Shown here: one piece after another, positions 50,948 through 64,000 of the stretch
How the letters are laid out: each line of letters opens with the position of its first letter
How positions within the stretch are numbered: position 1 is the first letter of the stretch
From: Luteibacter rhizovicinus DSM 16549
Lineage (GTDB): Bacteria > Pseudomonadota > Gammaproteobacteria > Xanthomonadales > Rhodanobacteraceae
Length of the DNA: 64,000 nt
Direction: 5' to 3'
Assembly (NCBI RefSeq): GCF_001887595.1
Contig: NZ_CP017480.1
Span: 1,364,001 to 1,428,000 of the forward strand
Program-made: the position numbers and the translations under genes
The notes under the pieces: model-generated
The model's input: only the letters and a program-made list of their open reading frames with translations
Database searches by the model: none
What the model was told of the DNA's origin: nothing

Positions 50948-50978
50948 GGTGGCGTTCTCGGTGTTGGTCCTGAAGGAT

Positions 50979-51014
50979 GGCCAGCCCGACGACAGGAAAA
51001 CGTGAGGGCTGGCC
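50979..51014. promoter_or_regulatory. Inverted repeat between glgX and the efflux operon
   Basis: GGCCAGCCC (50979) and GGGCTGGCC (ending 51014) are perfect 9-bp arms with an 18-base spacer, within the 152-bp divergent region. It could be an operator for the efflux operon or a hairpin in a leader. No regulator gene of MarR or TetR type is adjacent. Confidence 0.35.
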
Positions 51015-51099
51015 CGGCACGGCGAGCCCCGCAGGATTCGCCAAGCAAGTTGACCGGGCCGGTGGCAGCGTGGCGCCGTATTCATGGAGGTTGGCGGGG

Positions 51100-52089
51100 A
51101 TGAAACACGCGTTACGCATCATTGGAGGCCTGCTGGTGATCGGCACGCTCGTCATCGTGCTGTTTTTCTGGCTGGATCGTACCGAGACCACGACGGATGC
51201 CTATATCACCGGACGCCTCCACCCCATCGCCCCGCGCGTCACCGGTACCGTGGTCGCCCTGCACGTGGACGACAACCAGCATGTGAAGGCGGGCGACGTG
51301 CTGCTGGAACTGGACACCCGCGACTTCGATGTCCGCGTGGAGCAGGCAAGGGCGGACATCGATCGCGCCAAGGGACAAGTGGCCAGTGCCGAGGCGCAGA
51401 TCGTCGAGGCCAACGCCTCGATCGTCGCCGCGCAGGCCAGCGTGGAAAAGACGGCCCTCGACCTGAAACGCAACAGCGAACTGGTCCATGAAACGCCACG
51501 GGGCGTGTCCCAGCAGGAATACGACGCCGCCAAGGCCGCCTCCGACTCGGCGCGCGCCAACAAGGCCAGCGCCGAGGCGCGCAAGGTGGCGGCCACCGCC
51601 GCCGCCGAGTCGGCCCGGGCACAGGTCGCGACGGCCGAGGCGTCGCTGCACGACGCCAACCTGGCCTACGGGTACACCAAGGTCCTGGCCCCGGTCGGTG
51701 GCTATGTCGGCCGGCGGTCCGTCGAGGTGGGCGCGCGGGTCAACGCCGGGCAGACCCTGCTCTCGATCGTCTCCGACCAGGTCTGGGTGGTGGCCAACTT
51801 CAAGGAGACCCAGCTGCATGGCATGAAACGAGGCACGGAGGCGAAGATGACCATCGATGCCTTGCCGGACGTCACCTTCGTCGGCCACGTGGACAGCCTG
51901 TCGCCGGCCTCGGGCTCGCAATTCGCCCTGTTGCCGCCTGACAACGCCACCGGCAACTTCACCAAGGTCGTCCAGCGCGTGCCGGTGAAGATCCTCTTCG
52001 GCGACGACGACCTGCGTCGCTACCGCGAACGGCTGGCACCAGGCCTGTCGACGATCGTGAAGATCCACGCGACGGACGGCGGCCCATGA
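51100..52089 (+). CDS. EmrA/HlyD-type membrane fusion protein
   Basis: 329 residues. One N-terminal membrane segment (LVIGTLVIVLFFWLD), then TTDAYITGRLHPIAPRVTGTVVALHVDDNQHVKAGDVLLELD (in parts), a long Ala-rich coiled hairpin (about 75-190) and LAYGYTKVLAPVGGYVGRRSVEVG typical of EmrA. ATG at 51100 with GGCGGGG upstream. First gene of a three-gene tripartite efflux operon: stop overlaps the outer-membrane gene by four bases. Confidence 0.93.
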   Translation: MKHALRIIGGLLVIGTLVIVLFFWLDRTETTTDAYITGRLHPIAPRVTGTVVALHVDDNQHVKAGDVLLELDTRDFDVRVEQARADIDRAKGQVASAEAQIVEANASIVAAQASVEKTALDLKRNSELVHETPRGVSQQEYDAAKAASDSARANKASAEARKVAATAAAESARAQVATAEASLHDANLAYGYTKVLAPVGGYVGRRSVEVGARVNAGQTLLSIVSDQVWVVANFKETQLHGMKRGTEAKMTIDALPDVTFVGHVDSLSPASGSQFALLPPDNATGNFTKVVQRVPVKILFGDDDLRRYRERLAPGLSTIVKIHATDGGP

Positions 52090-53513
52090 GAGCGCGGGTC
52101 CTGGTGCTGGCACTATGCGTCACTGGCCTGGGCGGCTGCGTGCTCGGTCCGGACTACCAGCGCCCGGACACGCCCCTGCCCGCCGCCTGGAAAGAGCCCT
52201 CCGCCTCGACGGCAGCGATTCCGGACGCCTGGTGGAAACTGTTCGGCGACGACGAACTGGATCACCACGTCACCGCGACCCTGGCCGCCAACCAGGATCT
52301 CGCCGGTGCACTCGCGCGCTTCGACCAGAGCCGGGCCCTGCTCGGTGTGGCGCGGGCGGACCAATACCCGGATGTGAGCTTCGCGCCCGGTTACTCGCGG
52401 GCCCGGACCTCCGGAAGTATCGATAACCGGTTCCCCGTCCTCGAGACCACGGTGTGGCAGGCGCCGGTGGAACTCGCCTACGAGGTGGACCTGTGGGGCC
52501 GCGTGCGCCGGAGCGTCGAGGCCGCCGGTGCGGACCTCCAGGGCAGCGCCGACGCGATTGCCGCGGTACGCCTGAGCCTCGCCGCGGCCACCGTGTCGAC
52601 CTATCTGTCCCTGCGTAGCAGCGATCGCGAGATCGATGTGCTGGCGCGTACGGTGGGTGTGCGCGAGGATGAGCTCAAGCTTGCCGATCGCCGTGCCCGC
52701 GCCGGCGTGGTGGGCGATCTCGATGTCCTGCGCGCCCGCGCCGACCTGAGCCAGACACGTGCCGACCTTGCCGATGCGCGGCGCCGCCGCGACAACCTCG
52801 AACACGCGCTGGCTGTCCTCGAAGCACGTAACGCCGCGGAATTCAGCGTGGCAACCGTGGCCTGGACACCCCACGTGCCCGACGTACCGGCCGGCCTGCC
52901 TTCGACCCTGCTCGAACACCGCCCCGATGTCGCCAGCGACGAGCGTGCGCTCGCGGCGGCAAGCGCGCGCATCGGCGTGGCGAAGACCGCTTTCTTTCCC
53001 TCGGTGAGCCTCACTGCCTCGGGCGGCTTCGTCAGTCCTCGCCTCAGCGATCTCACGAATAGCCAGAGCGAGGTCTGGTCCTTCGGCCCGGTAGTCAACC
53101 TGCCGATCTTCGAGGGCGGGCGCAATCGCGCAAGGCTTGAAGGCGCGGAAGCCGCTTACCGTGGCGCCGAGGCCAAATGGCGGCAGACCGGCATCACCGC
53201 CTTCCAGGAGGTGCAGGACGCGCTCACCGATACCACGTGGTTGCGCGAACGCGGCACCGCGCTCGATGCCACGGTCGATGCCTCCACGGCGGCGGCGAAG
53301 TTGTCTCGCTCACGCTATGACCGTGGATTGGCCGGCTACTTCGAGGTGGTCGATTCCGAGCGTCAGGCGCTGAATACCCAGCGCGCCGCCATCGAGAACG
53401 ACCAGCAACGGCTGCTCGCCGCGGTCTCGCTGATCAAGGCGCTCGGCGGTGGGTGGAAGGAAGGCGATGCGGTCCCACGCCAGCCCGAGGCCACGGCGGC
53501 GGCATCGCCATGA
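52086..53513 (+). CDS. NodT/OprM-family outer-membrane efflux lipoprotein
   Basis: 475 residues. Lipobox LGGC (Cys18) followed by GPDYQRPDTPLPAAW, the usual NodT start. Two OEP repeats: long helices around 60-240 (ALLGVARADQYPDVSFAPGY, YEVDLWGRVRRSVEAAGADL) and 270-450 (LLEHRPDVASDERALAAASARIGVAKTAFFPSVSLTASGG in parts). Forms the outer-membrane channel. Starts within the preceding stop (ATGA) and its own stop overlaps the MFS start likewise. Confidence 0.94.
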   Translation: MRARVLVLALCVTGLGGCVLGPDYQRPDTPLPAAWKEPSASTAAIPDAWWKLFGDDELDHHVTATLAANQDLAGALARFDQSRALLGVARADQYPDVSFAPGYSRARTSGSIDNRFPVLETTVWQAPVELAYEVDLWGRVRRSVEAAGADLQGSADAIAAVRLSLAAATVSTYLSLRSSDREIDVLARTVGVREDELKLADRRARAGVVGDLDVLRARADLSQTRADLADARRRRDNLEHALAVLEARNAAEFSVATVAWTPHVPDVPAGLPSTLLEHRPDVASDERALAAASARIGVAKTAFFPSVSLTASGGFVSPRLSDLTNSQSEVWSFGPVVNLPIFEGGRNRARLEGAEAAYRGAEAKWRQTGITAFQEVQDALTDTTWLRERGTALDATVDASTAAAKLSRSRYDRGLAGYFEVVDSERQALNTQRAAIENDQQRLLAAVSLIKALGGGWKEGDAVPRQPEATAAASP

Positions 53514-55144
53514 ATGCGACGGCACCCGCAGCAAGCGCCGCCCCCGCCCCTCCGACCAACCTGCCCTGGCTGGGCATCGTCGCCGTACTTATCGGCGCGC
53601 TGGCGACCACGCTGACGTCACGGCTGACGTCCATCGGCCTGGCCGACGTACGCGGTGCGGTCGGTGCCGGCTTCGACGAGGGCGCATGGATTCCTACCGC
53701 GTTCTCCGCGTCGCAGATGATGATCGGGCCGTTGTCCGTGTTCCTCGGTCGCGCCTTCACGCCACGTCGCGTGCTGCTGGTCGGTTGCGTCGTCTACGGC
53801 CTGGCGGAATTCCTGATTCCTTTCTCGCCCGACCTGCGCATCCTGCTCATGCTGCAGTGCCTCGCGGGGCTCGGCTCGGGCACGTTCATTCCGCTGACCG
53901 CGGCCTTCATCCTCACCGCGCTGCCCAAGAGTCTCTGGCCATGGGGCCTGGCGGCCTATGCGATGAATATCGTCCTCGGCCTCAACATCGCGTCCACGCT
54001 GGAAGGCTGGTACGCGAACCACGTCAACCTGGACTGGATCTTCTGGCAGAACACGGTCGTAGCCGTGCCTTTGTTCGTACTTTACTGGTTTGGCCTGCGA
54101 CGCCTGCCCATCGATCGCGATTACCTGCGCAACGGCGATTTCCGCGGCATGTTCACCGGCGGCGCGGCCTTCACCTTCATCTTCATCGCGCTCGATCAGG
54201 GCGACCGTCTCGACTGGTTCTCGTCCACGCTGATCGTCACCTTGTTCGCCCTGGGCGTCATCTGCCTGGGCCTGTTCCTTCTCCACGAGTCGACGCTCGA
54301 CGCGCCGAGCGTGGACTTCACCCTGCTCCTTCGCCGCAACGTGTTCCTGTTGATCCTGCTGGTGACGGCGACGCGCTTCCTGGTGACGGCGAGCAACACC
54401 CTGGTGGCCAACTACCTGATCCAGGTGCGCGGCTTGCGTCCCGAAGAGGTCGGAAACGCGGCGCTGTGGGTGGCGCTTCCCCAATTGGTCATCGCGCCGA
54501 TCGTCGCGTGGCTGCTCAATCGCGCCGATGCGCGCTTCGCGATCGGCACGGGCTTCGCCATCGCGACCGCCGGCTTCCTGCTGGCCACCGGCATCACCTC
54601 CGAATGGGCGGAGCCGAACTTCAGCCTTGCCCTGCTGCTCCAGGCCGTGGGGGAGACGCTGGAGCTGACGGCGGTGATTTATTTCTTCGGCCATCACGTC
54701 GGCCCGGCCGATGGCATCACCTTCGGCGCGATCATCCAGACCGCCCGACTCTTCGGCGGCGAGCTGGGCACCTCGGTCCTGGTCATGTTCACGCGCAAGG
54801 CCGAACAGGTGCATTCCTATTGGATCGGCCAACACATCGTCGCCGGCGACCCGATGACCGACGAGCGCATCCTCGCCTACACACAGCTCATCGGCGCCTC
54901 GACCCAGGGTGCCGGCGGGCCGGCGGCCCGAGGGACCGGCCTGCTGTCCGCCGCCGTGCGAGAGCAGGCCTATACCCTGTCGATCCTGGACGGCTTCCTG
55001 CTCGCCGCCGTGGTCGGCACGCTGGCAGTCGCCCTGGTGCTGTGCCTGCGTGAACCGCCGGTACTCGTCAATCCGCCCGCCGTCCCGGCGCTGCCACCCG
55101 ACGACCGTGACACCGCGCCGCATCCCGTTCACTCCACTTCGTGA
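53510..55144 (+). CDS. EmrB/QacA-type MFS drug transporter (DHA2)
   Basis: 544 residues with about 14 membrane segments. LPWLGIVAVLIGALATTLTSRLTSIGLADVRG, AFSASQMMIGPLSVFLGRAF, and LQCLAGLGSGTFIPLTAAFIL (in parts) match the DHA2 family although motif C is less canonical. ATG 53510 overlaps the previous stop (ATGA); an upstream extension lies within the NodT gene. With the two preceding genes it forms an Emr-like pump across both membranes. Confidence 0.93.
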   Translation: MNATAPAASAAPAPPTNLPWLGIVAVLIGALATTLTSRLTSIGLADVRGAVGAGFDEGAWIPTAFSASQMMIGPLSVFLGRAFTPRRVLLVGCVVYGLAEFLIPFSPDLRILLMLQCLAGLGSGTFIPLTAAFILTALPKSLWPWGLAAYAMNIVLGLNIASTLEGWYANHVNLDWIFWQNTVVAVPLFVLYWFGLRRLPIDRDYLRNGDFRGMFTGGAAFTFIFIALDQGDRLDWFSSTLIVTLFALGVICLGLFLLHESTLDAPSVDFTLLLRRNVFLLILLVTATRFLVTASNTLVANYLIQVRGLRPEEVGNAALWVALPQLVIAPIVAWLLNRADARFAIGTGFAIATAGFLLATGITSEWAEPNFSLALLLQAVGETLELTAVIYFFGHHVGPADGITFGAIIQTARLFGGELGTSVLVMFTRKAEQVHSYWIGQHIVAGDPMTDERILAYTQLIGASTQGAGGPAARGTGLLSAAVREQAYTLSILDGFLLAAVVGTLAVALVLCLREPPVLVNPPAVPALPPDDRDTAPHPVHSTS

Positions 55145-55150
55145 CATCAT

Positions 55151-55170
55151 CCCTGGACCCACGTCCAGGG
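55151..55170. terminator. Hairpin after the efflux operon
   Basis: CCCTGGAC and GTCCAGGG form a perfect 8-bp stem with a CCAC loop, six bases after the MFS stop and 23 bases before the DUF2946 start. The following bases are TTGCAAA, not a T-run, so it may be a weak terminator or an operator for the next gene. Confidence 0.4.
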
Positions 55171-55193
55171 TTGCAAACATAGGGGACGCCGAC

Positions 55194-55577
55194 GTGCGTC
55201 GTGGTCTGGCACGAAACCGCTGGTTGGGATGGATGGCGCTGGTCGCCGTCTGGCTCACCGTGCTGGCGCCGTCGGTCTCGCGGACCGTGTCGGCCGCCTT
55301 CGTGTTCCCGGACCTCGGTGCCTGGTGCGAGACCTCGCCGGGCGAGCACCACGGCGCCGCGACCGGCCATGACGCGGATGCCCCTGGCGACGGTGCGGCT
55401 TGCGGGTACTGCACGCTGTTCGCGCAGATGCCGGCCCTGGATAGCGCCTTCTACATCGGCCATGCCTTGCCGTCGCCGGCGCACGTGCCTGCCACGCTTC
55501 CGCCCACCCGTGCCCATGTGCCGGTGGCCATCCTGTACGCCCCGCCACGAGGTCCGCCGGTCGACACGCACGCCTGA
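55194..55577 (+). CDS. DUF2946 family protein, putative metal-related
   Basis: 127 residues from GTG 55194, with AGGGGA upstream; the longer frame to 54909 lies in the MFS gene. One hydrophobic signal or anchor (LGWMALVAVWLTVLAPSVS), then a short His/Cys-bearing segment (SPGEHHGAATGHDAD and ACGYC) typical of DUF2946, and a Pro-rich tail. DUF2946 genes often precede TonB receptors with links to copper; here a receptor gene follows 46 bases later. Function inferred only from context. Confidence 0.72.
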   Translation: MRRGLARNRWLGWMALVAVWLTVLAPSVSRTVSAAFVFPDLGAWCETSPGEHHGAATGHDADAPGDGAACGYCTLFAQMPALDSAFYIGHALPSPAHVPATLPPTRAHVPVAILYAPPRGPPVDTHA

Positions 55578-55623
55578 TCGATTCCGATCCCGCCGTACGC
55601 CACCGACCCACGGACTTATCGCC

Positions 55624-57921
55624 ATGACCCTGTTCCCCACGAATGGACGCGCCCTCGCGCGTGCCGTCGCCTGCGCCCTCGGCGCCGCCTGCCTGCCACT
55701 GCACGCCGCCGATGGTCCCGACGACCCCCAACACGCGACCACCTTGCGCGAGGTGCGCGTTTCCGCAGCCGGTCGTGGTGCGCCGGTCGATCCGGACCTG
55801 CCGGCCGCGGTCGAAACGATCACCGCCGAGCAACTCGACCGGTTCAACGTGATCAATGCCGAGGATGCCTTGAAGTACCTGCCCTCCTTCGGCATCCGCA
55901 AACGCTTCACCGGCGATGAGAACGCCACGTTTTCCGTGCGTGGCACGAGCAACCAGCAAAGTGCACGCGGCCTGGTCTATCTCGACGGTCTGCTGCTGTC
56001 GAACCTCCTCGGTAACAACTGGGCCAACCCGCCACGCTGGTCGATGGCCTTTCCCGAGAACCTGTCGCGCGTCGACGTGATCTACGGTGCGTATTCCGCG
56101 CTCTATCCCGGCAACGCGATCGGCGCGACCGTGCTGATGACGACGCGCATGCCGGAGAAGCTGGAGGTGACCGGTGACGTGCAGGCCTTCACCCAGCATG
56201 TGCACACCTACGGTGTCGATCGCGACTACGGCGGCAGCCGGCAGACCGCGACTATTGGCGATCGTGACGGCCGCTTTGCCTTCCTGATCGGCGTATCGCA
56301 CCTGCAGGCGAACGGCCAGCCCCTCGTCTACGGCACGCAGAACCGGTCGACGGTGGCGGGCGCACGCAATCCGGTCACCGGGGCCATCGGCGACACCGGG
56401 GCGACCGGCGTGCCACGCGAAGTGCTCGGCATCAACAGCGAGGGCCAGGAAGCGAGCAGCCAGGACGAAGCGCATGCCCGACTTACCTATGACGTGACGC
56501 CCGACCTTACGGCGGCGCTCACCGCCGGCTACTGGAAACAGGACCTGTCTCACCGTACGGAGACGTTCCTGCGCGATGCCAACGGCCAGCCCGTATGGTC
56601 CGGACCGGTGACGATCGATGGACGCCAGTACACCGTGCCGGCGAATTTCTTCGCACCGAGCACCCGGCAAAGCCGAAACTATCTCTACGGCATCTCGCTG
56701 GGCACGCACCGCGATAGCGGATGGAACATCGAGGGCGATGCCTCGTACTTCGACATGGATCGCAATCGCGACCGTGTCGCCAACGCGGTGACCGACAACG
56801 GCGCGGGCCTGCTCACCGCCGGCGACGGCAGTCGCTGGCGCACGTTCGACCTGCGCGCCAGCCACACGCCCGACAACCTCGGCCCCCATACGCATACGGT
56901 GAGCTTCGGTTATCACTTCGACGGCTACGCGCTGGACAACGCGACTTACAACCTGGCGAACTGGCGCAATGGGGAAGCCGGCTCGCTCACCACCGCGAAC
57001 GGCGGCAGCACGCAGACCCAGGCCGTGTACCTGCAGGATGCGTGGCAGCTGATCGAGCGCTGGCGACTCACCGTGGGCGCGCGCTACGAGCAATGGCGTG
57101 CCTTCGGCGGCTCGCGTTCCACCTCGACAGCCACGGTTGGCTATCCCGAGCGAAAGGAATCGCATACCTCGCCCAAGGCATCGCTGGCTTACGACGCCAG
57201 CGACACGGTGACCCTGCGCCTGTCCGGCGCACGCGCCTATCGATTCCCCACGGTGAACGAGCTGTTCCAGGGAACGTTCAACGGCATCGCGCTGATCAAC
57301 AACGATCCCAACCTGAAACCGGAGAAGGACCTCTCCCGCGAATTCTCCACGGAGTGGTATCGCCCGAACGGCGTGGCGCGCTTCACGATCTACCGCAGCG
57401 ATACGCGCAATACGCTCTTCAGCCAGACCGATACGACGGTGTTCCCGAATGTGACCAGCGTGCAGAACGTCGGTCTGGTTCGCACGCGGGGCGCCGAGGC
57501 GAGCTATGACGGTACCGGCGTCTGGTGGCCGATGTTCGATCTCACCGCCAATGCGGCTTACACCCAGGCGACGACGGTGAGCAATGCGCGCAACCCCACT
57601 TCCGAAGGCAAGCAGTTCTATCGGATCCCGCGCTGGCGCGCGAACGTCATCGGCACGTATCACGCCAGCGAGCGTGTCGCATTAACGCTCGCCGGGCGCT
57701 ATTCCGGCCGGCAGTACAATACGCTCGATCACAGCGATATCCACCCGGACACGTTCGGCGGTGCCAGCGCCTTCCTCACCTTCGATGCCAAGCTGACCTG
57801 GAAAGTGAGCGACCACGTGGAGCTGGGCGCCGGTGTCGACAACCTGACCAACCGCCGCTACTACGTGTATTACCCGTACCCGTCGCGCAGCTATCTGGTG
57901 GAGGCGAAGTTCCGGCTTTGA
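55624..57921 (+). CDS. TonB-dependent receptor, possibly metal (copper) related
   Basis: 765 residues. Signal peptide (AVACALGAACLPLHA), TonB-box region TLREVRVSAAGRG, plug (VETITAEQLDRFNVINAEDALKYLPS, GNAIGATVLMTTRMPEKLEV in parts) and a barrel ending in Leu after YLVEAKFRL, near the usual aromatic terminus. No STN domain. The upstream DUF2946 gene suggests a metal or metallophore substrate, which is inference. ATG at 55624. Its 3' end overlaps the synthetase gene on the other strand by 31 bases. Confidence 0.9.
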   Translation: MTLFPTNGRALARAVACALGAACLPLHAADGPDDPQHATTLREVRVSAAGRGAPVDPDLPAAVETITAEQLDRFNVINAEDALKYLPSFGIRKRFTGDENATFSVRGTSNQQSARGLVYLDGLLLSNLLGNNWANPPRWSMAFPENLSRVDVIYGAYSALYPGNAIGATVLMTTRMPEKLEVTGDVQAFTQHVHTYGVDRDYGGSRQTATIGDRDGRFAFLIGVSHLQANGQPLVYGTQNRSTVAGARNPVTGAIGDTGATGVPREVLGINSEGQEASSQDEAHARLTYDVTPDLTAALTAGYWKQDLSHRTETFLRDANGQPVWSGPVTIDGRQYTVPANFFAPSTRQSRNYLYGISLGTHRDSGWNIEGDASYFDMDRNRDRVANAVTDNGAGLLTAGDGSRWRTFDLRASHTPDNLGPHTHTVSFGYHFDGYALDNATYNLANWRNGEAGSLTTANGGSTQTQAVYLQDAWQLIERWRLTVGARYEQWRAFGGSRSTSTATVGYPERKESHTSPKASLAYDASDTVTLRLSGARAYRFPTVNELFQGTFNGIALINNDPNLKPEKDLSREFSTEWYRPNGVARFTIYRSDTRNTLFSQTDTTVFPNVTSVQNVGLVRTRGAEASYDGTGVWWPMFDLTANAAYTQATTVSNARNPTSEGKQFYRIPRWRANVIGTYHASERVALTLAGRYSGRQYNTLDHSDIHPDTFGGASAFLTFDAKLTWKVSDHVELGAGVDNLTNRRYYVYYPYPSRSYLVEAKFRL

Positions 57922-60599
57922 CGAATCGGCGTCGGCAGGTGTTCGTCGAGCATGAACGCGGCCGGCGCGGCGCGTCCCAGTCGATCGAAGAATGAGCCGA
58001 CACCCACGCCGCCGGTGGCCAGGTCGCAACTGATACGCAACAGTTCGGTGCCGGGCACGGCCAGCCCTTCCTTGCGCGGGATGAGGAAGGGCTCGATGCC
58101 GCGCGCCACGCGAAGTGCTCCTTCGCGGTACAGGTTGGCGCGCTCCGGCAGAAACTGTGCGAGATCGAGCAGCGTCTCGCCGATACCTGCAAGGCCGTCG
58201 AACAAACCCGGGCTGATTGCGTGGATGCGCAGCAGGTCGCCTTCGCTGTCGAGCAGCACGTCGCGGTAACGAACCTCTCCGGTGCAGGCGAGGAAGCGGG
58301 CCACCACGGCGACGATCCCCGCCGTACCCTGGCGCAGATAGGGCACGGAGGGAAACGGACCAACGGACATCGGCCACGTCGCGGCGCCGTCCGCGTTATC
58401 GCGACGTTGTGCCAGGTCGAAGGCCAGTGCCGCCGTGGCTCCACTCAGGAAGCGCGGCTCGCCGGTGGCGACGTGCAGATGAAGCAGGAAGAGCGCGATA
58501 CCCGCCGCGCCGTATGCAAGACCGACAGGTTGCTGGCCGCCGTCCGGCCAGCGCAAGGTGTCGTCGTCCCCGGCAATCGCGGCAATCAGCAGCTCGTCTC
58601 CCGCCTGCCTGGCCGCTTTCAGAAAATCAGCGTCCGCCGTTTCGTGCCACGCCTTGATCCGGGCGAGGCCCCAGCCCGCGAGGCCCTCATGCAGCCCCGG
58701 CGCGTGCCGGATGCCATCGTCCAGCGGTCCCGACCGGATGAGGGTCGCCGCGCGCTCGGCTTCACCCGCGTCGAAAAGCACCCATGCGATGCCGGCATCG
58801 CCGGACATCAGGCTCACGCCACGCGGGGTGGATGCGTCGAGGCCGGCAAGCAGGTAGTCGCGCAGTCCGGCAGGTGGTTCACGCCCGCCGCGCAGGTATG
58901 CATGCAAGACACCCGCGGCACCGTGAGCCACGCCCCAGGGATGGCTTTCGAACACCTCGGGCGCGGCCGGCACGAAACGATCGGGACGCGCACGAGTTGC
59001 CTGCGCCGTGACGTAGCCGAACAGCGCGTCCGCGTGGTCGGGTAGTCGCGGAACGGCAGCGAGGCGGTGCGGTACCGGCTCGCTTCCGGTTTCCACCTCG
59101 GCCAGGGACAGGCGCAAGGCCGCCATGACTTCCGGTGGTGACGGGCGCCTTGAACCGCTGGTATCCAGCAATCGAGCGATGACGTCCGTCACGGCGGCGG
59201 GATAGCCCATGTCCTCGCTCATCCGGCAGGCGAAACGCATGGCCGCCGCCCGATCCAGCGGAAGCATCGCGTTGATCGGGATCATGGCGGCCAGGAGGTT
59301 CGCGCCAAAGGCGTAGCTGTCTTCCTTCCGCGCCCCCGCGTGATCGCGTGACGGCGGATTTCCCGATGCAAAGCCCGGCGTGCGAAGCCCTATGGGCGCA
59401 TCCATGCCCTCCTCGACGGCCGCTTCCAGGTCGATCAGGCGCACGTCATCGTCGGCACCGACGATGATGTTGTGGAATGAAAGGTCCCCCAGCGACACGC
59501 CCACCGCATGCACGCGCTCGACGGCATCGGCGATACGGCTGTACACCGTCACGACGTCGATGAGAAAACGCGCGACGTCGTCCCGTGTCGCCCGCGTCTT
59601 CAGCCAGGGATAGCGGCGTCCCAGCCACAGCCGCAAGGTGTCGCCACGCAGGTACTCCTCAACGAGGAAGCTGTGTTCCCACTCCTCGAAATGCGCGATC
59701 GGCATGGGCGCGATACGCAGCGGCGCAAGGCAACGCAGCAACCGGAACTCCTTGCGCAGACTCTCTTTGGCAGTTTCGCCCGCGCCGACGAACGGGCGCG
59801 CTTCCTTGATGACGACACGTCGCCCCTCGTCGAGGTCGTCGGCAAGGTAGACACCGCCTGCGGAAGAAAAGGCCAGGGCTTCGTAGACGCGATAACGGCC
59901 GCCACCCAGAAGCACCGGCGATGCCGGCGCCGCCGGAGCGTCGGTCCCGAAAGGATCGCGCAGCCAGTCGGGTAGACGGAATCGCGGCGACCGATCATCC
60001 GCCTCGACACGATCGTCGGGCCGACGCAGCAGCCATTCGTGGCGTCCGCCTGGCGAAATACGGAAGTCTGAAACGATCCCGCCATAACGGTAATAGAGCA
60101 CACGAGAATCGTCATAACGCCGATCCGTGAGTACGTACGGCCCGACGTAGCCCGATAAGGCAGCGTGCAGATCGGCGATCACCTGGCGGAAGTCGTCGAC
60201 ATCGCGCGGATATACGGTGATGAACTTGCCGGATCCGCCGCGCGGCCAGCGTTTGCCATTGATGGCGGAGAGCATGACCCGATCCGCCGCGAATTTGAAC
60301 GCGGTACCTGACGCGGCCAGGGTTGCCGCGGCGATCGAAAGCACGATATGAGCGGTGGCGGCGATCGAGGACACATGGATCTTCCAGCCTTGCATCGGCA
60401 GCACGGCATTCGCCGGCCGGCAATGCATCCAGATACCCGATCGATGAACGGTCCAGTGAGTCGGCAGCACCCGCTTTGCCGGGGCGACGAAATCGTCTTC
60501 CCGAATAATGCGGCTGGCGTAGGGCTCGAAAAATTCGCGATCGACCGAGGTGTACTGCAACAGCTGTGCGCGTCGCTCCATGATGTCCCGTTGCTCCAT
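57891..60599 (-). CDS. LanKC: class III lanthipeptide synthetase
   Basis: 902 residues from ATG 60599; an in-frame extension to 60752 would overlap the precursor gene and the hairpin. Three parts: an N-terminal lyase-like region (1-215, YTSVDREFFEPYASR, WKIHVSSIAATAHIVLS), a Ser/Thr kinase-like domain (about 230-500) with Lys265 (VVIKEARPF), catalytic Asp372 and Asn377 (LGDLSFHNIIVG) and Asp390 (LIDLEAAVE), and a C-terminal LanC-like domain (about 560-902) with repeated GxAG motifs (GVAHGAAGVLHAYL, GLHEGLAGWGLARI, GLAYGAAGIALFLL, ISPGLFDGLAGIGE). The Cys-Cys-His zinc ligands of LanC are absent, which points to class III rather than IV. It should phosphorylate, eliminate and cyclise Ser/Thr of the adjacent precursor. 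Confidence 0.92.
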   Translation of the reverse strand: MEQRDIMERRAQLLQYTSVDREFFEPYASRIIREDDFVAPAKRVLPTHWTVHRSGIWMHCRPANAVLPMQGWKIHVSSIAATAHIVLSIAAATLAASGTAFKFAADRVMLSAINGKRWPRGGSGKFITVYPRDVDDFRQVIADLHAALSGYVGPYVLTDRRYDDSRVLYYRYGGIVSDFRISPGGRHEWLLRRPDDRVEADDRSPRFRLPDWLRDPFGTDAPAAPASPVLLGGGRYRVYEALAFSSAGGVYLADDLDEGRRVVIKEARPFVGAGETAKESLRKEFRLLRCLAPLRIAPMPIAHFEEWEHSFLVEEYLRGDTLRLWLGRRYPWLKTRATRDDVARFLIDVVTVYSRIADAVERVHAVGVSLGDLSFHNIIVGADDDVRLIDLEAAVEEGMDAPIGLRTPGFASGNPPSRDHAGARKEDSYAFGANLLAAMIPINAMLPLDRAAAMRFACRMSEDMGYPAAVTDVIARLLDTSGSRRPSPPEVMAALRLSLAEVETGSEPVPHRLAAVPRLPDHADALFGYVTAQATRARPDRFVPAAPEVFESHPWGVAHGAAGVLHAYLRGGREPPAGLRDYLLAGLDASTPRGVSLMSGDAGIAWVLFDAGEAERAATLIRSGPLDDGIRHAPGLHEGLAGWGLARIKAWHETADADFLKAARQAGDELLIAAIAGDDDTLRWPDGGQQPVGLAYGAAGIALFLLHLHVATGEPRFLSGATAALAFDLAQRRDNADGAATWPMSVGPFPSVPYLRQGTAGIVAVVARFLACTGEVRYRDVLLDSEGDLLRIHAISPGLFDGLAGIGETLLDLAQFLPERANLYREGALRVARGIEPFLIPRKEGLAVPGTELLRISCDLATGGVGVGSFFDRLGRAAPAAFMLDEHLPTPIRQSRNFASTR

Positions 60600-60615
60600 G
60601 TGGGGGTGTAACCCC

Positions 60616-60651
60616 GGTGCACGAGACGACCCGGACGTCGCCTCGTGCACC
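60616..60651 (-). promoter_or_regulatory. Strong hairpin between precursor and synthetase genes
   Basis: GGTGCACGAGGCGAC and GTCGTCTCGTGCACC form a 15-bp stem (one G-T pair) around a six-base loop in the 65-base gap between the precursor stop and the synthetase start. No T-run follows. Such hairpins between lanA and the modification gene are known to give partial termination or transcript protection, raising precursor over enzyme. A second small hairpin GGGGTGTAACCCC (plus strand) lies at 60603-60615. Confidence 0.75.
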
Positions 60652-60664
60652 ATCGTCGTCCCGG

Positions 60665-60796
60665 CTATTCCACGAAACCGTCCATGTGGTAGATCGAGCA
60701 ACTCCCCGTGCTGCAGGTCGTTCCCCATTCGCCACCGTCGTTGCGATCCCACGCCATATCGGTCGCCAGGTCTTGCAGGTCGAGTACGCTTGGCAT
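60665..60796 (-). CDS. Lanthipeptide precursor peptide (class III LanA candidate)
   Basis: 43-residue peptide. ATG 60796 is preceded by the near-ideal ribosome site AAAGGAGGG (60808-60800). The leader has LDLQDL at residues 5-10, matching the (I/L)LDLQ motif that class III synthetases recognise. The C-terminal part holds Thr26, Thr27, Cys28, Ser29, Thr30, Ser32, Cys33 and Ser34, then an uncharged-to-acidic tail ending in Phe-Val-Glu. Thr26-x2-Ser29-x3-Cys33 and Thr27-x2-Thr30-x2-Cys33 both fit the Ser-x2-Ser-x(2-5)-Cys pattern for a labionin ring. Located 63 bases after the kinase gene and 65 bases before lanKC, all on one strand. Confidence 0.85.
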   Translation of the reverse strand: MPSVLDLQDLATDMAWDRNDGGEWGTTCSTGSCSIYHMDGFVE

Positions 60797-60859
60797 AAGC
60801 CCTCCTTTGGTTAAGCGCTCGGACGTGCGCGTCGCCGAAATGCGAAGCGCGAGGCGAAT

Positions 60860-62353
60860 CTAGGACGCCTGCGTATCGCCGGACAGTGGCGCAGGGGTAC
60901 CGTTCCGGGGTTTACACCCGGATAGGGTGGCTTCTTGCGCTGGCTGACCGGTTTCGGTCACCCGATCTGTCCGGAATCGGACACCGCCGTCCGAGTCCGG
61001 ATGCATGGGCAGCCGGACCGTCGCAACGGCTCCCTTACGGTCGCTGCGTGCGGCGAGGTCCACCGTGCCCGCATGCGCCTCGACGATGAGGCGCGTCAGG
61101 CTCAGTCCGATGCCCGAGCCCTCGGGCTTTGTGGTGAAGAAGGGAACGAAGATGCCGTCGCTTGGGGGCAATCCAACGCCCTCGTCCTCGATCGTCACGC
61201 GCACGAATCCGGCTTCGGCACGCCAGTCGATGCGCACGCCACCTTCCGTCTCCAGCGTCGCCTCGACCGCGTTGCGTATCAGGTTGATGAAGGCCTGCCC
61301 AAGCTGATCTTCATCGCCGTTTACCGTGACCGCTGCACGGCCCGTCACGTCGACCGCCTTGCGCCTCTCGAGCAGCGCCAGGCGACGCAGGGCGATATCC
61401 AGGCGAAACGGCCGTGATTGCAGGGGCGGCAGTCGCGCCAGCCGGCCGTAGCCGGAAAGGAAACGTGTCAGTGAGTGCGCGCGTCGACCGATCACTTCCA
61501 GGCCGAGACGCAGCTCGTCCTGAATCGCACCGATGTCATCGGCGTCCAGCAGGGTCGATAGACTTCCCGCCAACGAGCCGATGGGCCCCAGCGAGTTGTT
61601 CAACTCATGGCTGAGCACGCGGATCAGGCGCTGCCACGCGCGCCTCTCCTCTTCACTCAACGCCGCGCTCAGGTCGTGCAGCATCACCATCGTGTGCTCG
61701 CGCCCTTCGCTGTACCAGACCGCGCGGCGCACGGCCCAGCGGCCGCTCATCGAAGCGAAACGGTAGTTGAGGATGGCACCGTCTGCCGCGCGCAGGGGCT
61801 CGCCCAGGCCGAGCGACGTCATGTCACGGCCGATCACGGCAGCACGCTCCGCCCCGATCAGGCGCCGCGCGGCGGGATTGATGAATGCCAGGCACTCGCG
61901 ATCATCGATAACAAAGACAGCACTGTGCAAGGCGACCAGGGTCTTGCCGAGGAAGCGGGACGTCTCGGTGCGTTTTCGCCTGCCACTGCGCAGATCGTCG
62001 GTCAGCAGGTTCACATCGCCAATCAGGCCCTGGAGAGGATCCCGACCGGGGCGCACACGTCCCCGCATGCTGTAGTCACCTTCACGGATGGCGAACAGAA
62101 GGTCGAGGACCGTTCCCAGCGTCGCCACCAGACGGCCTCCGCCGATCCAGCCGAGGAGTCCGCTGAGCGCAAGCCCGGCAGCGAAGATGGCGCCGCGGAC
62201 CGCCAGCGAAAGGCCACTGACCACGACCAGGAGTGCGCCACTCGCGACGAGCGGCGTGACGAACATCAACGCCCAAAGGACGGCGTCGATCCGAAGCATC
62301 ACGGAGCGGTCGTGGGTCGCTGTCGCATCATGCGATCGGTAACGAAGGCTCAT
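60860..62353 (-). CDS. NtrY/PilS-like membrane histidine kinase
   Basis: 497 residues from ATG 62353; an upstream extension to 62440 overlaps the regulator gene. Two N-terminal membrane segments (about 24-75: MFVTPLVASGALLVVVSGLS, GAIFAAGLALSGLLGWIGGG), a PAS-like region (about 155-235: LVALHSAVFVIDDRECLAFI), His phospho-acceptor in RVLSHELNNSLGPIGSLAG, N box INLIRNAVEATL, G boxes DEGVGLPP and GSGIGLSLTR. Almost no periplasmic loop, so it probably senses within the membrane, as peptide-antibiotic kinases do. Ten bases after the response-regulator gene; probably its partner. Confidence 0.92.
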   Translation of the reverse strand: MSLRYRSHDATATHDRSVMLRIDAVLWALMFVTPLVASGALLVVVSGLSLAVRGAIFAAGLALSGLLGWIGGGRLVATLGTVLDLLFAIREGDYSMRGRVRPGRDPLQGLIGDVNLLTDDLRSGRRKRTETSRFLGKTLVALHSAVFVIDDRECLAFINPAARRLIGAERAAVIGRDMTSLGLGEPLRAADGAILNYRFASMSGRWAVRRAVWYSEGREHTMVMLHDLSAALSEEERRAWQRLIRVLSHELNNSLGPIGSLAGSLSTLLDADDIGAIQDELRLGLEVIGRRAHSLTRFLSGYGRLARLPPLQSRPFRLDIALRRLALLERRKAVDVTGRAAVTVNGDEDQLGQAFINLIRNAVEATLETEGGVRIDWRAEAGFVRVTIEDEGVGLPPSDGIFVPFFTTKPEGSGIGLSLTRLIVEAHAGTVDLAARSDRKGAVATVRLPMHPDSDGGVRFRTDRVTETGQPAQEATLSGCKPRNGTPAPLSGDTQAS

Positions 62354-62363
62354 GCCCCGGCCC

Positions 62364-63740
62364 TCACTCGATGGGTTCGAATCCGTAGCGGGCGCGGTGC
62401 TTGTCGAGCCTGCGATACAAGGACTGGCGTGAGATGCCAAGCGCGTCGGAGGCGCGCTGGAGATTATGGTCGTTACGCTCCAGGGCGCTCCGTATGATCA
62501 TTTCTTCCGCTTCCGGCAGTGTCAGCCGGTCCAGCACGAGGGCCGACGCCGTCGACTTGCACAGGTTCAGCCCGTCCACATCGATCTCGTCGCCATCGGC
62601 CAGCAGCACCGCGCGTTCGACGGCGTGTTCCAGTTCCCGAATGTTTCCCGGCCACTCGTACGCACGCATGGCGCGTTCGGTGGACACCGAAAGGAACATG
62701 CTGCCGCGTCCGCGGCGACGGCATTCGCGCAGGATGAAATGCCGCGCGAGAGGAATGATGTCTTCCGACCGGTCACGCAGGGAAGGCATCCGTATCTGCA
62801 TCGCGTTCAGACGGTAGAGCAGGTCCCGGCGGAACCGGTCGGCCCTTACCGACGCATCCAGATCCGCATTGGTCACGGAGATGACGCGAACGTCGACCCG
62901 GTGCGTGCGGGCCGAGCCCGACCTTTCCAGCTCGCCTTCTTCCAGAACACGCAACAGCTTCACCTGCTGGGCGATCGGTATGTGACCGATTTCCTCGAGG
63001 ATCAGGCTACCGCCTTGTGCCAGCTCGAAGCGTCCCGGACGCGGGTGCCGATCGTCGTCGCCAAACATCTCATCGACGAAACGCGATTCGGGGAGGCTGC
63101 CCATGTCGACGCGGATGACCGGTCCATCGGCACGAGAGGACATGGTATGGATCTCACGCGCCAGCAGGGACTTGCCTGTGCCGTTCTCGCCCAGAATGAG
63201 TACGTTCGCATCGCTGGCGGCGATACGCGACGCCAGCTTCGTGACTTCGCGCATGGCCGACGACTCCCATGCGCGAAGAACGTCGGGAATTTCCCTGCCG
63301 AGGGCGTTCTCGGCGCGAAGTCGCCGGTTCTCCTCGCGAATTTCGCGAAGGGCGATCTGGCTACGCACGGTATGCAGCATTCGCTCGTTGTTCCACGGCT
63401 TCTCGATGAAATCGGCGGCACCCCGACGCATCGCCTGGACAGCCAGGTCGACGCTTCCCCAGGCCGTCATCGCCACTAACGGGAGTTCGGGAAAGTCCTC
63501 GCGGAGTTGACCGATGAGCTCGAGCCCTTCGTGTCCCGACGTCGTGTCGGCGCTGTAGTTGAGGTCGAGCAGGGCACAGGCGAAGTCGGCGCGGGACGCC
63601 GCATCGAGCGCCGCCTCCGGCGAGGTGACCTGCACGGAAGGGATGTCCAGGGAGCGAAAGAGCAGACGAAGCGATACGAGTACATCCGCCTGGTCGTCGA
63701 CGATGAGCACGGGAAGGGCAAGAAGGGGGCGCGGGATCAT
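62364..63740 (-). CDS. NtrC-family response regulator lacking the GAFTGA loop
   Basis: 458 residues. Receiver (1-120) with Asp15/Asp16, phospho-acceptor Asp59 (ALLDLNYS) and Lys114. AAA+ domain with Walker A GENGTGKS (184-191), Walker B GGSLILEEIG (Glu in place of the usual Asp) and the arginine-finger region RRDLLYRLNAMQ. Where GAFTGA should be, residues 218-236 read PESRFVDEMFGDDDRHPRP, so the sigma-54 contact is missing. A Fis-type HTH follows (NLQRASDALGISRQSLYRRL). It may act on sigma-70 promoters or as a repressor. ATG overlaps the permease stop (ATGA). Confidence 0.92.
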   Translation of the reverse strand: MIPRPLLALPVLIVDDQADVLVSLRLLFRSLDIPSVQVTSPEAALDAASRADFACALLDLNYSADTTSGHEGLELIGQLREDFPELPLVAMTAWGSVDLAVQAMRRGAADFIEKPWNNERMLHTVRSQIALREIREENRRLRAENALGREIPDVLRAWESSAMREVTKLASRIAASDANVLILGENGTGKSLLAREIHTMSSRADGPVIRVDMGSLPESRFVDEMFGDDDRHPRPGRFELAQGGSLILEEIGHIPIAQQVKLLRVLEEGELERSGSARTHRVDVRVISVTNADLDASVRADRFRRDLLYRLNAMQIRMPSLRDRSEDIIPLARHFILRECRRRGRGSMFLSVSTERAMRAYEWPGNIRELEHAVERAVLLADGDEIDVDGLNLCKSTASALVLDRLTLPEAEEMIIRSALERNDHNLQRASDALGISRQSLYRRLDKHRARYGFEPIE

Positions 63741-64000
63741 CGGGGTATCCCTTCACGATGGCGCGACCCGCGCGGCGACATCAGTTCGCCGCGCAGGATC
63801 GTCGCCGGGCGCACCGCGGCGGCGTGCAAGGACGGCAATGCTACGGCAGCCAATGCCGCGGCAATCATCAATAGCGCGACGGCGGCAACCACGCCGACAT
63901 CGATGACGCCTCGCTCGAGCGCCGGATGCACGACGACCCGGCCGAGGACGACGGCGACCACCAGGCCGACAGCGACACCGGGCATCGCCATGCCGAGGCC
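63737..64000 (-). CDS. FtsX/MacB-type ABC transporter permease (C-terminal part; 5' end outside window)
   Basis: Only the last 88 codons are in the window; the frame is open to the edge (Gly-Leu-Gly precede the Met at 63991). The visible part is a membrane segment (VAVGLVVAVVLGRVVVHPAL), a short loop (ERGVIDVGVV) and another (AAVALLMIAAALAAVALPSL), followed by HAAAVRPATILRGE, the typical end of MacB/FtsX permeases. Overlap with the regulator start means translational coupling. It suggests a MacB-like exporter or a BceB-like peptide sensor-exporter upstream. Confidence 0.85.
   Translation of the reverse strand, partial: GLGMAMPGVAVGLVVAVVLGRVVVHPALERGVIDVGVVAAVALLMIAAALAAVALPSLHAAAVRPATILRGELMSPRGSRHREGIPR

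Follow-up and report, generated by a model that had tools for sequence, protein, structure and literature searches.

Class III lanthipeptide systems of the SapB/AmfS type in Streptomyces, together with the synthetases ThurKC, CuvL, SalKC and PneKC, are the closest described counterparts of a six-gene cassette that we analyze here in Luteibacter rhizovicinus DSM 16549, a soil bacterium of the family Rhodanobacteraceae. The cassette lies at the end of a window of 64,000 bases (bases 1364001-1428000 of a single 4.77 Mb contig) and runs beyond its edge. It shares with these systems a three-domain LanKC, a predicted metal-free cyclase, an LxLQ leader and an S-x2-S-x3-C core, but it is found in a Gram-negative host and carries a single core motif. 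SapB/AmfS-type clusters of Streptomyces possess a Ram-type exporter and a LuxR-type regulator, which in Luteibacter are replaced by an ATP-binding cassette (ABC) system of type VII and an NtrC-like two-component system. We regard it as rather probable that the cassette combines the genes of a class III lanthipeptide with a Bce-like module that senses and handles the peptide.

Class III clusters of the LanKC type have been described in other Gram-negative bacteria. A refactored cluster of Myxococcus fulvus gave a modified peptide (PMC9576775), and in Lysobacter capsici the transcripts of lanA and lanKC increase on two media (PMC10380237); in the available text of these two accounts we saw no linked cassette of type VII ABC and two-component genes (PMC9576775, PMC10380237). 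Three Lysobacter loci were compared with the cassette, and a similar ATPase and permease lie downstream in two of them (L068 and L100; labels L### and G### denote loci and genomes in the comparison set), and a similar regulator or kinase gave no match in any of the three. Class III clusters, called uncharacterized, were predicted by antiSMASH in 4/5 strains of Luteibacter mycovicinus, which, as far as the available text goes, can be likened to the present locus by genus and class; precursor, gene order, regulator and distribution are not given there (PMC11165876). Class III clusters in Luteibacter are already predicted, and class III products from outside Actinobacteria and Firmicutes are already published. 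An earlier note on this DNA, made from its letters, had held that such systems are mainly described from Actinobacteria and some Firmicutes; this is too narrow, given 322 LanKC relatives in species genomes, of which the 80 retained include many proteobacteria, and the Myxococcus product (PMC9576775). Among the matches listed in the openly licensed literature there is no characterized class III product from a gammaproteobacterium, and the nearest, according to its available text, is the M. fulvus peptide.

The Bce modules of Bacillota (BceAB-BceRS) share with the Luteibacter cassette a type VII permease with a separate ATPase and a kinase without an extracellular domain. BceR is an OmpR-like regulator, which is taken as defining for these modules, whereas the Luteibacter regulator is NtrC-like with AAA+ and HTH_8 domains and not of the OmpR family; moreover, the permease has two periplasmic domains like YbbP instead of a single large extracellular domain, and the module is linked to peptide synthesis genes. 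The regulator itself resembles NtrC of Caulobacter and Rhodobacter capsulatus and VspR of Vibrio cholerae, AAA+ proteins in which the sigma-54 loop is likewise deleted, but in Luteibacter the loop-less form is fixed in a lanthipeptide cassette and a paralog in the same genome keeps GAYTDA. From a MacAB-type tripartite exporter the cassette differs in that a periplasmic adaptor gene was not found in the lan loci searched.

The Cassette and its Class III Synthetase

On the minus strand the genes run in the order ATPase, FtsX/MacB-type permease, response regulator, kinase, lanA and lanKC.

57891..60599, minus strand: lanKC, class III lanthionine synthetase with lyase, kinase and cyclase domains (NCBIfam, Pfam, AlphaFold model)
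60665..60796, minus strand: lanA, 43-residue precursor (slot conserved in 21/21 Luteibacter lan loci)
60860..62353, minus strand: membrane histidine kinase, start ATG (Pfam HATPase_c and PAS; hydropathy; HELNN box)
62364..63740, minus strand: NtrC-like response regulator (receiver, AAA+, Fis-type helix-turn-helix) without GAFTGA loop (Pfam; NtrC1 alignment)
63737..64000, minus strand, gene running to 66172 on the window scale: ADOP-like FtsX/MacB permease of 811 residues, C-terminal part in the window (ADOP TIGR03434, Pfam)
66169-66942 on the window scale, minus strand: ATPase gene, beyond the window edge (sequence past the window edge)

Five of these elements had been placed by the earlier note, with gaps of at most 65 bases, and the open reading frame coordinates bear this out: counted upwards from lanKC the intergenic gaps are 65, 63 and 10 bases, followed by a 4-base overlap of the regulator and permease genes. 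Reading upstream of position 64000, as that note had suggested, extended the permease to 66172 and added the ATPase gene, which overlaps the permease gene by 4 bases and makes the cassette one of six genes. An ATG at 60581 inside lanKC is an equally good or better start, with homology beginning at residue 6-7 in many relatives, and its use would widen the gap to lanA to 83 bases. The full order is kept in all 21 Luteibacter lan loci, the window's own included, so that the linkage of two-component and ABC genes with lanKC, first read from one stretch of DNA, is conserved throughout.

To judge from profile matches and models, LanKC is a class III synthetase with lyase, kinase and metal-free cyclase domains and conserved residues. 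The class III model NCBIfam NF038151 matches it with 709.5 bits (cut-off 575), the class IV model with 535 bits, under its cut-off of 650. The lyase domain matches Pfam RamC_N (207.9 bits, cut-off 27) and the cyclase domain LANC_like (49.5 bits, cut-off 23.2), and the kinase domain stays slightly below the cut-off for Pkinase (28.2 against 31.7). Among 20 aligned enzymes (the 21st, L064, was left out as its reference contained a stop), K73, H75, K102 and K125 of the lyase and K265, E284, D372, N377 and D390 of the kinase are invariant, and these we take to be active-site residues of the two domains. At the places where, from the example of NisC, we presume the zinc-ligand motifs to lie, the cyclase reads LAYGAAG and GLFDGLAG and has neither Cys nor His as zinc ligand. 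Lack of zinc ligands is the rule for class III cyclases (PMC7268733). Relatives of solved structure found by sequence are class III synthetases, the best being 8sap, 8sao and 8sam (ThurKC), and the AlphaFold model (mean predicted local distance difference test score 88.1, predicted template modeling score 0.86) aligns over its full length with the PDB structures of ThurKC, SalKC, CuvL and PneKC as best matches. One Luteibacter genome (G018) has a distant second LanKC, 35% identical (L053 12001-14649), beside which the patterns used found no LxLQ precursor.

The Precursor Peptide

As deduced from its frame, the product of the small gene upstream of lanKC is a precursor in which an LxLQ leader is followed by an S/T-x2-S-x3-C core. 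LanA carries VLDLQ in its leader and T26-x2-S29-x3-C33 in its core, with a further Cys, C28, that is not conserved, and AAAGGAGG precedes its start. The earlier note had proposed to check whether the frame is conserved in relatives that keep lanKC, and a frame of 40-45 residues is indeed present between kinase and lanKC in all 20 other lanKC genomes as well as in the window. A leader LQ with the loose core S/T-x2-S-x2-3-C is found in 21/21 loci, and the strict core [ST]xxSxxxC in 20/21, the remaining one having SxxSxxC, compared to 2.3% of shuffled peptides. When 17 of the 21 peptides were aligned, four close ones being omitted, the start Met, the leader Leu-Gln, one core Ser and one core Cys turned out to be invariant and the rest drifts.

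An alignment-based search of 5.8 billion proteins returned 39 relatives of LanA; those that a source names are hypothetical or uncharacterized proteins, and the organism, wherever given, is Luteibacter. The strict core motif is present in 30 of the 32 relatives that are not identical to the aligned peptides; of the two without it, one starts late and one shifts frame inside the core. In P0038 (Luteibacter sp. NPDC031894) the lanA-like frame departs from the others within the core motif, which may reflect a gene broken in nature or a sequencing error. Names of this kind, and a LanA score below the NCBIfam cut-off, would suit a chance or relic open reading frame, with LanKC acting on something else. 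However, the frame is not due to chance, because it occupies the same slot in every locus and its motif exceeds the shuffled rate so widely, and the leader LQ and core motif are kept as other positions change and recur in those 30 further database sequences; we hold this explanation to be highly improbable. In known class III peptides, lanthionine or labionin arises from motifs of the form S-x2-S-x3-C (PMC7268733). It is very probable that the gene set produces a class III lanthipeptide, a peptide containing rings, and the proposal of such a locus in a gammaproteobacterium is upheld by the LanKC model scores and the conserved precursor.

The ABC Pair and the Kinase

The permease scores 358.6 bits against the ADOP model TIGR03434, under the cut-off of 622.3, and matches Pfam MacB_PCD and FtsX. 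Since the window's gene is cut by the edge, the structure was taken from the ortholog L058 (Luteibacter sp. OK325); the model is nearest to YbbP and then BceB, with a high global root-mean-square deviation of about 9-11 for the families of the two best entries, and together with hydropathy it indicates two periplasmic domains. Among NCBIfam models, that of the darobactin-export ATPase DarD fits the ATPase best, at 224.5 bits under a cut-off of 375. By hydropathy, the kinase has two close hydrophobic segments and almost no periplasmic loop, and its HELNN box is found in 20/21 orthologs.

The earlier note had proposed export by this ABC pair, which would call for a MacA-like adaptor and a TolC-like channel encoded elsewhere. 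The match to DarD, though under its cut-off, is in line with export, and the HlyD-family adaptor of a paralogous block in the genome could serve in trans. On the contrary, type VII (FtsX/MacB) transporters are described, in the available text of two accounts, as working in the periplasm and typically transporting no substrate across the inner membrane (PMC5985334; PMC12646458). Moreover, tblastn with the genome's own HlyD-family adaptor (E up to 1e-3) gave no match in the 21 lan loci, although a very different adaptor could escape, and LanA is without a hydrophobic segment by hydropathy. The claim of export is thus not sustained, and we consider it quite unlikely that the pair exports the modified peptide.

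The Regulator and the lanA Promoter

By family and domains the regulator is NtrC-like, as had been claimed, but the sigma-54 control that this implied is not supported. When aligned to NtrC1, the gap in the regulator exactly covers GAFTGA, the loop that contacts sigma-54, and the shortened loop is present in 21/21 orthologs, which all keep the receiver Asp; as aligned, the regulator lacks this feature of sigma-54-dependent NtrC activators. The regulator beside lanKC in the acidobacterial locus L071 retains GAFTDA. Upstream of lanA two elements can be listed.

60857..60886, minus strand: sigma-70-like promoter of lanA, CTGTCC-N18-TAGATT (pattern in 19/21 loci)
60827..60850, minus strand: dyad GCGCTTCGC-ATTTCG-GCGACGCGC, between promoter and lanA start codon (covariation in 11 relatives)

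The -35/-10 pair, with a spacer of 18 bases (17 in one), is a pattern composed after looking at the sequences and occurs in 19/21 loci, but in 1.2% of 130-base windows drawn at random from these loci and in 3.5% of shuffled sequences; TAGATT itself is found in 16/21 loci and in 0.6% of both controls. The TAG of the window's -10 box doubles as the stop codon of the kinase gene. No conserved -24/-12 site emerged when the regions preceding lanA and the ATPase gene were scanned for a sigma-54 promoter. NtrC proteins lacking the GAFTGA loop act on sigma-70 promoters (PMC10274813), and a regulator without this loop next to a sigma-70-like lanA promoter, being in line with them, leads to the prediction that it acts through sigma-70.

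An element resembling TTTCCGGCAA precedes the aligned ATPase start by at most 150 bases in 14/21 lan loci (in the window's genome, L003 2943-3204), compared to 3.2% of random windows and 1.0% of shuffles, and is a candidate regulator site. Its presence upstream of the ATPase gene and not of lanA, as well as a promoter of lanA's own, would agree with a role of the ABC pair and two-component system in immunity or detoxification only, against own or foreign envelope-active peptides and with no control of production; MacB/Bce-like systems are known to confer lantibiotic and bacitracin resistance (PMC5985334). Kinase and regulator are nevertheless linked to the peptide genes in 21/21 loci, and the regulator has lost exactly the sigma-54 loop, as would suit a regulator of sigma-70 promoters, the lanA promoter among them, and we regard immunity as the sole function as unlikely.

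The dyad in the lanA leader may act as an RNA hairpin or as a DNA operator. Its spacer is ACTTCCC or near it in 11 relatives, the window not among them, and in these 11 loci, chosen for showing the spacer word while 10, the window included, were left out, pairing holds for 88% of cells, with changes on both sides in 8 of them. Across all 21 leaders hairpins are mildly above shuffles (score >=7 in 7/21 compared to 4.8%). As a genome-wide regulator site the dyad was rejected, with 14 occurrences of its core word across 23 genomes, of which 4 lie at lanA, compared to 28 of the reversed-pattern control; near the ATPase gene there is one loose match, in L042. A cobalamin-like riboswitch at the end of the kinase gene was likewise discarded, as Rfam gave no relevant RNA in 55000-64000.

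Co-variation and a Proposed Mechanism

Mean pairwise identity is lowest for the permease (0.39) and the peptide (0.40), followed by LanKC and kinase (both 0.60), regulator (0.69) and ATPase (0.71); the flanking genes, at 0.81 and 0.86, are far less variable than permease and peptide. In partial Mantel tests on 19 of the 21 loci, with TonB-receptor distance as control, the permease correlates with the kinase (r=0.72, p=0.0005) and the regulator (0.58), and the peptide with LanKC (0.59, p=0.0005), the permease (0.46, p=0.0005) and the regulator (0.44), with LanKC-kinase at 0.38 and no correlation between peptide and ATPase (-0.14). This pattern is that expected of a receptor-like permease, which lends indirect support to the sensing that the earlier note had inferred.

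A Bce-like module that senses and handles the peptide is favored because permease, nearly loopless kinase and peptide co-vary. LanKC would phosphorylate and eliminate Ser/Thr and add Cys, so that one or more lanthionine or labionin rings form, and the leader would be removed by a protease encoded elsewhere. Lanthipeptide proteases are, reportedly, often unclustered (one study), and for this reason a protease gene missing from the locus is no objection. The product would then get by some route to the envelope, where the type VII ABC complex of ATPase and two-periplasmic-domain permease may recognize or remove it. The complex would control the kinase, with its near absence of a sensor loop, as BceAB does BceS; the kinase would phosphorylate the GAFTGA-less NtrC-like regulator, and the latter would act on sigma-70 promoters, possibly that of lanA-lanKC.

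Several observations weigh against this proposal. LanA reaches 18.8 bits against the SapB/AmfS model NCBIfam NF033212, where the cut-off is 25, and a search of the kinase orthologs for the HELNN box failed to find it in L050. The kinase-ATPase (0.52) and permease-ATPase (0.38) pairs correlate too, the peptide-kinase correlation is weak (r=0.26, p=0.036; 0.17, p=0.10 with the regulator as control), and partial Mantel correlations may stem from shared rate changes in a linked block. The TTTCCGGCAA-like element occurs upstream of lanA in 0/21 loci, and no regulator site shared by the two upstream regions was found. Lastly, a paralogous adaptor-ATPase-permease-regulator-kinase block without lanKC exists elsewhere in the genome, so that such a module can exist without LanA.

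Distribution and Inheritance of the Cassette

In a survey of 233 genomes of the family (LanKC threshold E up to 1e-30), LanKC is present in 21/23 genomes of the genus and in 4/210 others; among the 22 other genus genomes 20 carry lanKC, one of them, a draft, in two pieces. On either side of the cassette the neighbors are a convergent TonB receptor gene, overlapping the end of lanKC by 31 bases, and a glycoside hydrolase gene, found in 19/21 and 20/21 loci, respectively.

67205-69454 on the window scale, plus strand: flanking divergent glycoside hydrolase family 3 gene

When a tree was built from the two flanking genes, rooted at the midpoint with no outgroup, the two genomes without the cassette, G015 and G020, came out together as sister to the remaining genomes, and the LanKC tree recovers the same groups. 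From these trees we take it that there was a single event, either a gain of the cassette at the base of the larger clade or its loss in the G015/G020 pair, and that within the genus it is inherited vertically as a block. Both genomes retain the TonB receptor, and a permease ortholog was not found in either, the best matches having at most 34% identity over part of the protein; between the flanking genes there is one PhzF-like gene in G015 and several other genes in G020.

For loci outside the genus, 80 of the 322 LanKC relatives were fetched, 70 of them non-Luteibacter, and the Luteibacter order was seen in 0/70 of these loci, although the upstream sequence of several is not long enough for it to be visible (e.g., L066, L073, L077, L084, L108, L117, L122, L130). 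In L071 (Candidatus Angelobacter) the permease, regulator and kinase are divergent from lanKC, in L091 the kinase and regulator lie upstream of it, and an ATPase at least 48% identical is found downstream of lanKC in 9 of the 80 loci fetched. LxLQ precursors were seen in 27/30 loci scanned (29 of the 80 fetched and the second copy L053), a count made with no chance control, and many of these are proteobacterial. Tandem sets of two or three LxLQ precursors that resemble each other are found in some non-Luteibacter loci, namely L067 6937-7600 (Pyrinomonadaceae), L072 3055-3281, L088 7194-7865 (Stenotrophomonas) and L121 6949-7326 (Massilia).

The paralogous block of the same genome (L152 4559-11730; G000:C1:4334558-4341729) comprises an HlyD-family adaptor, an ATPase, an FtsX/MacB-type permease, an NtrC-like regulator that keeps GAYTDA and a kinase with a weak HAMP match, and no lanKC adjoins it. 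Next to the TonB receptor, window positions 50977-55144 hold genes for an HlyD-family adaptor, an outer membrane efflux protein and a major facilitator superfamily pump, the pump gene being at that place in 6/9 named Luteibacter loci (L057-L065). Past the glycoside hydrolase gene lie two adjacent genes of TAP-like alpha/beta hydrolases (L003 5535-8953), possible aminopeptidases and candidate leader proteases.

Implications

Given the proposed mechanism, a role as signal or narrow-range antagonist is more likely for the peptide than a structural one. Inherited vertically across the genus, and combining a small core and a clear promoter with matched ABC, kinase and regulator genes, the locus offers a good test of the role of such a peptide in a Gram-negative cell, and it is suited to testing for Bce-style sensing through a type VII ABC complex in Gram-negatives, where the loss of the sigma-54 loop next to a sigma-70-like promoter yields a direct regulatory prediction. 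Tentatively, the peptide might also be a self-sensed signal, in which the ring peptide of each species is read by a co-evolving YbbP-like permease and passed through the loopless kinase to a sigma-70-acting regulator that feeds back on lanA, a scenario that we consider possible but rather doubtful. If true, this would constitute a peptide communication circuit in a Gram-negative genus, with a mechanotransmission ABC complex as its receptor.

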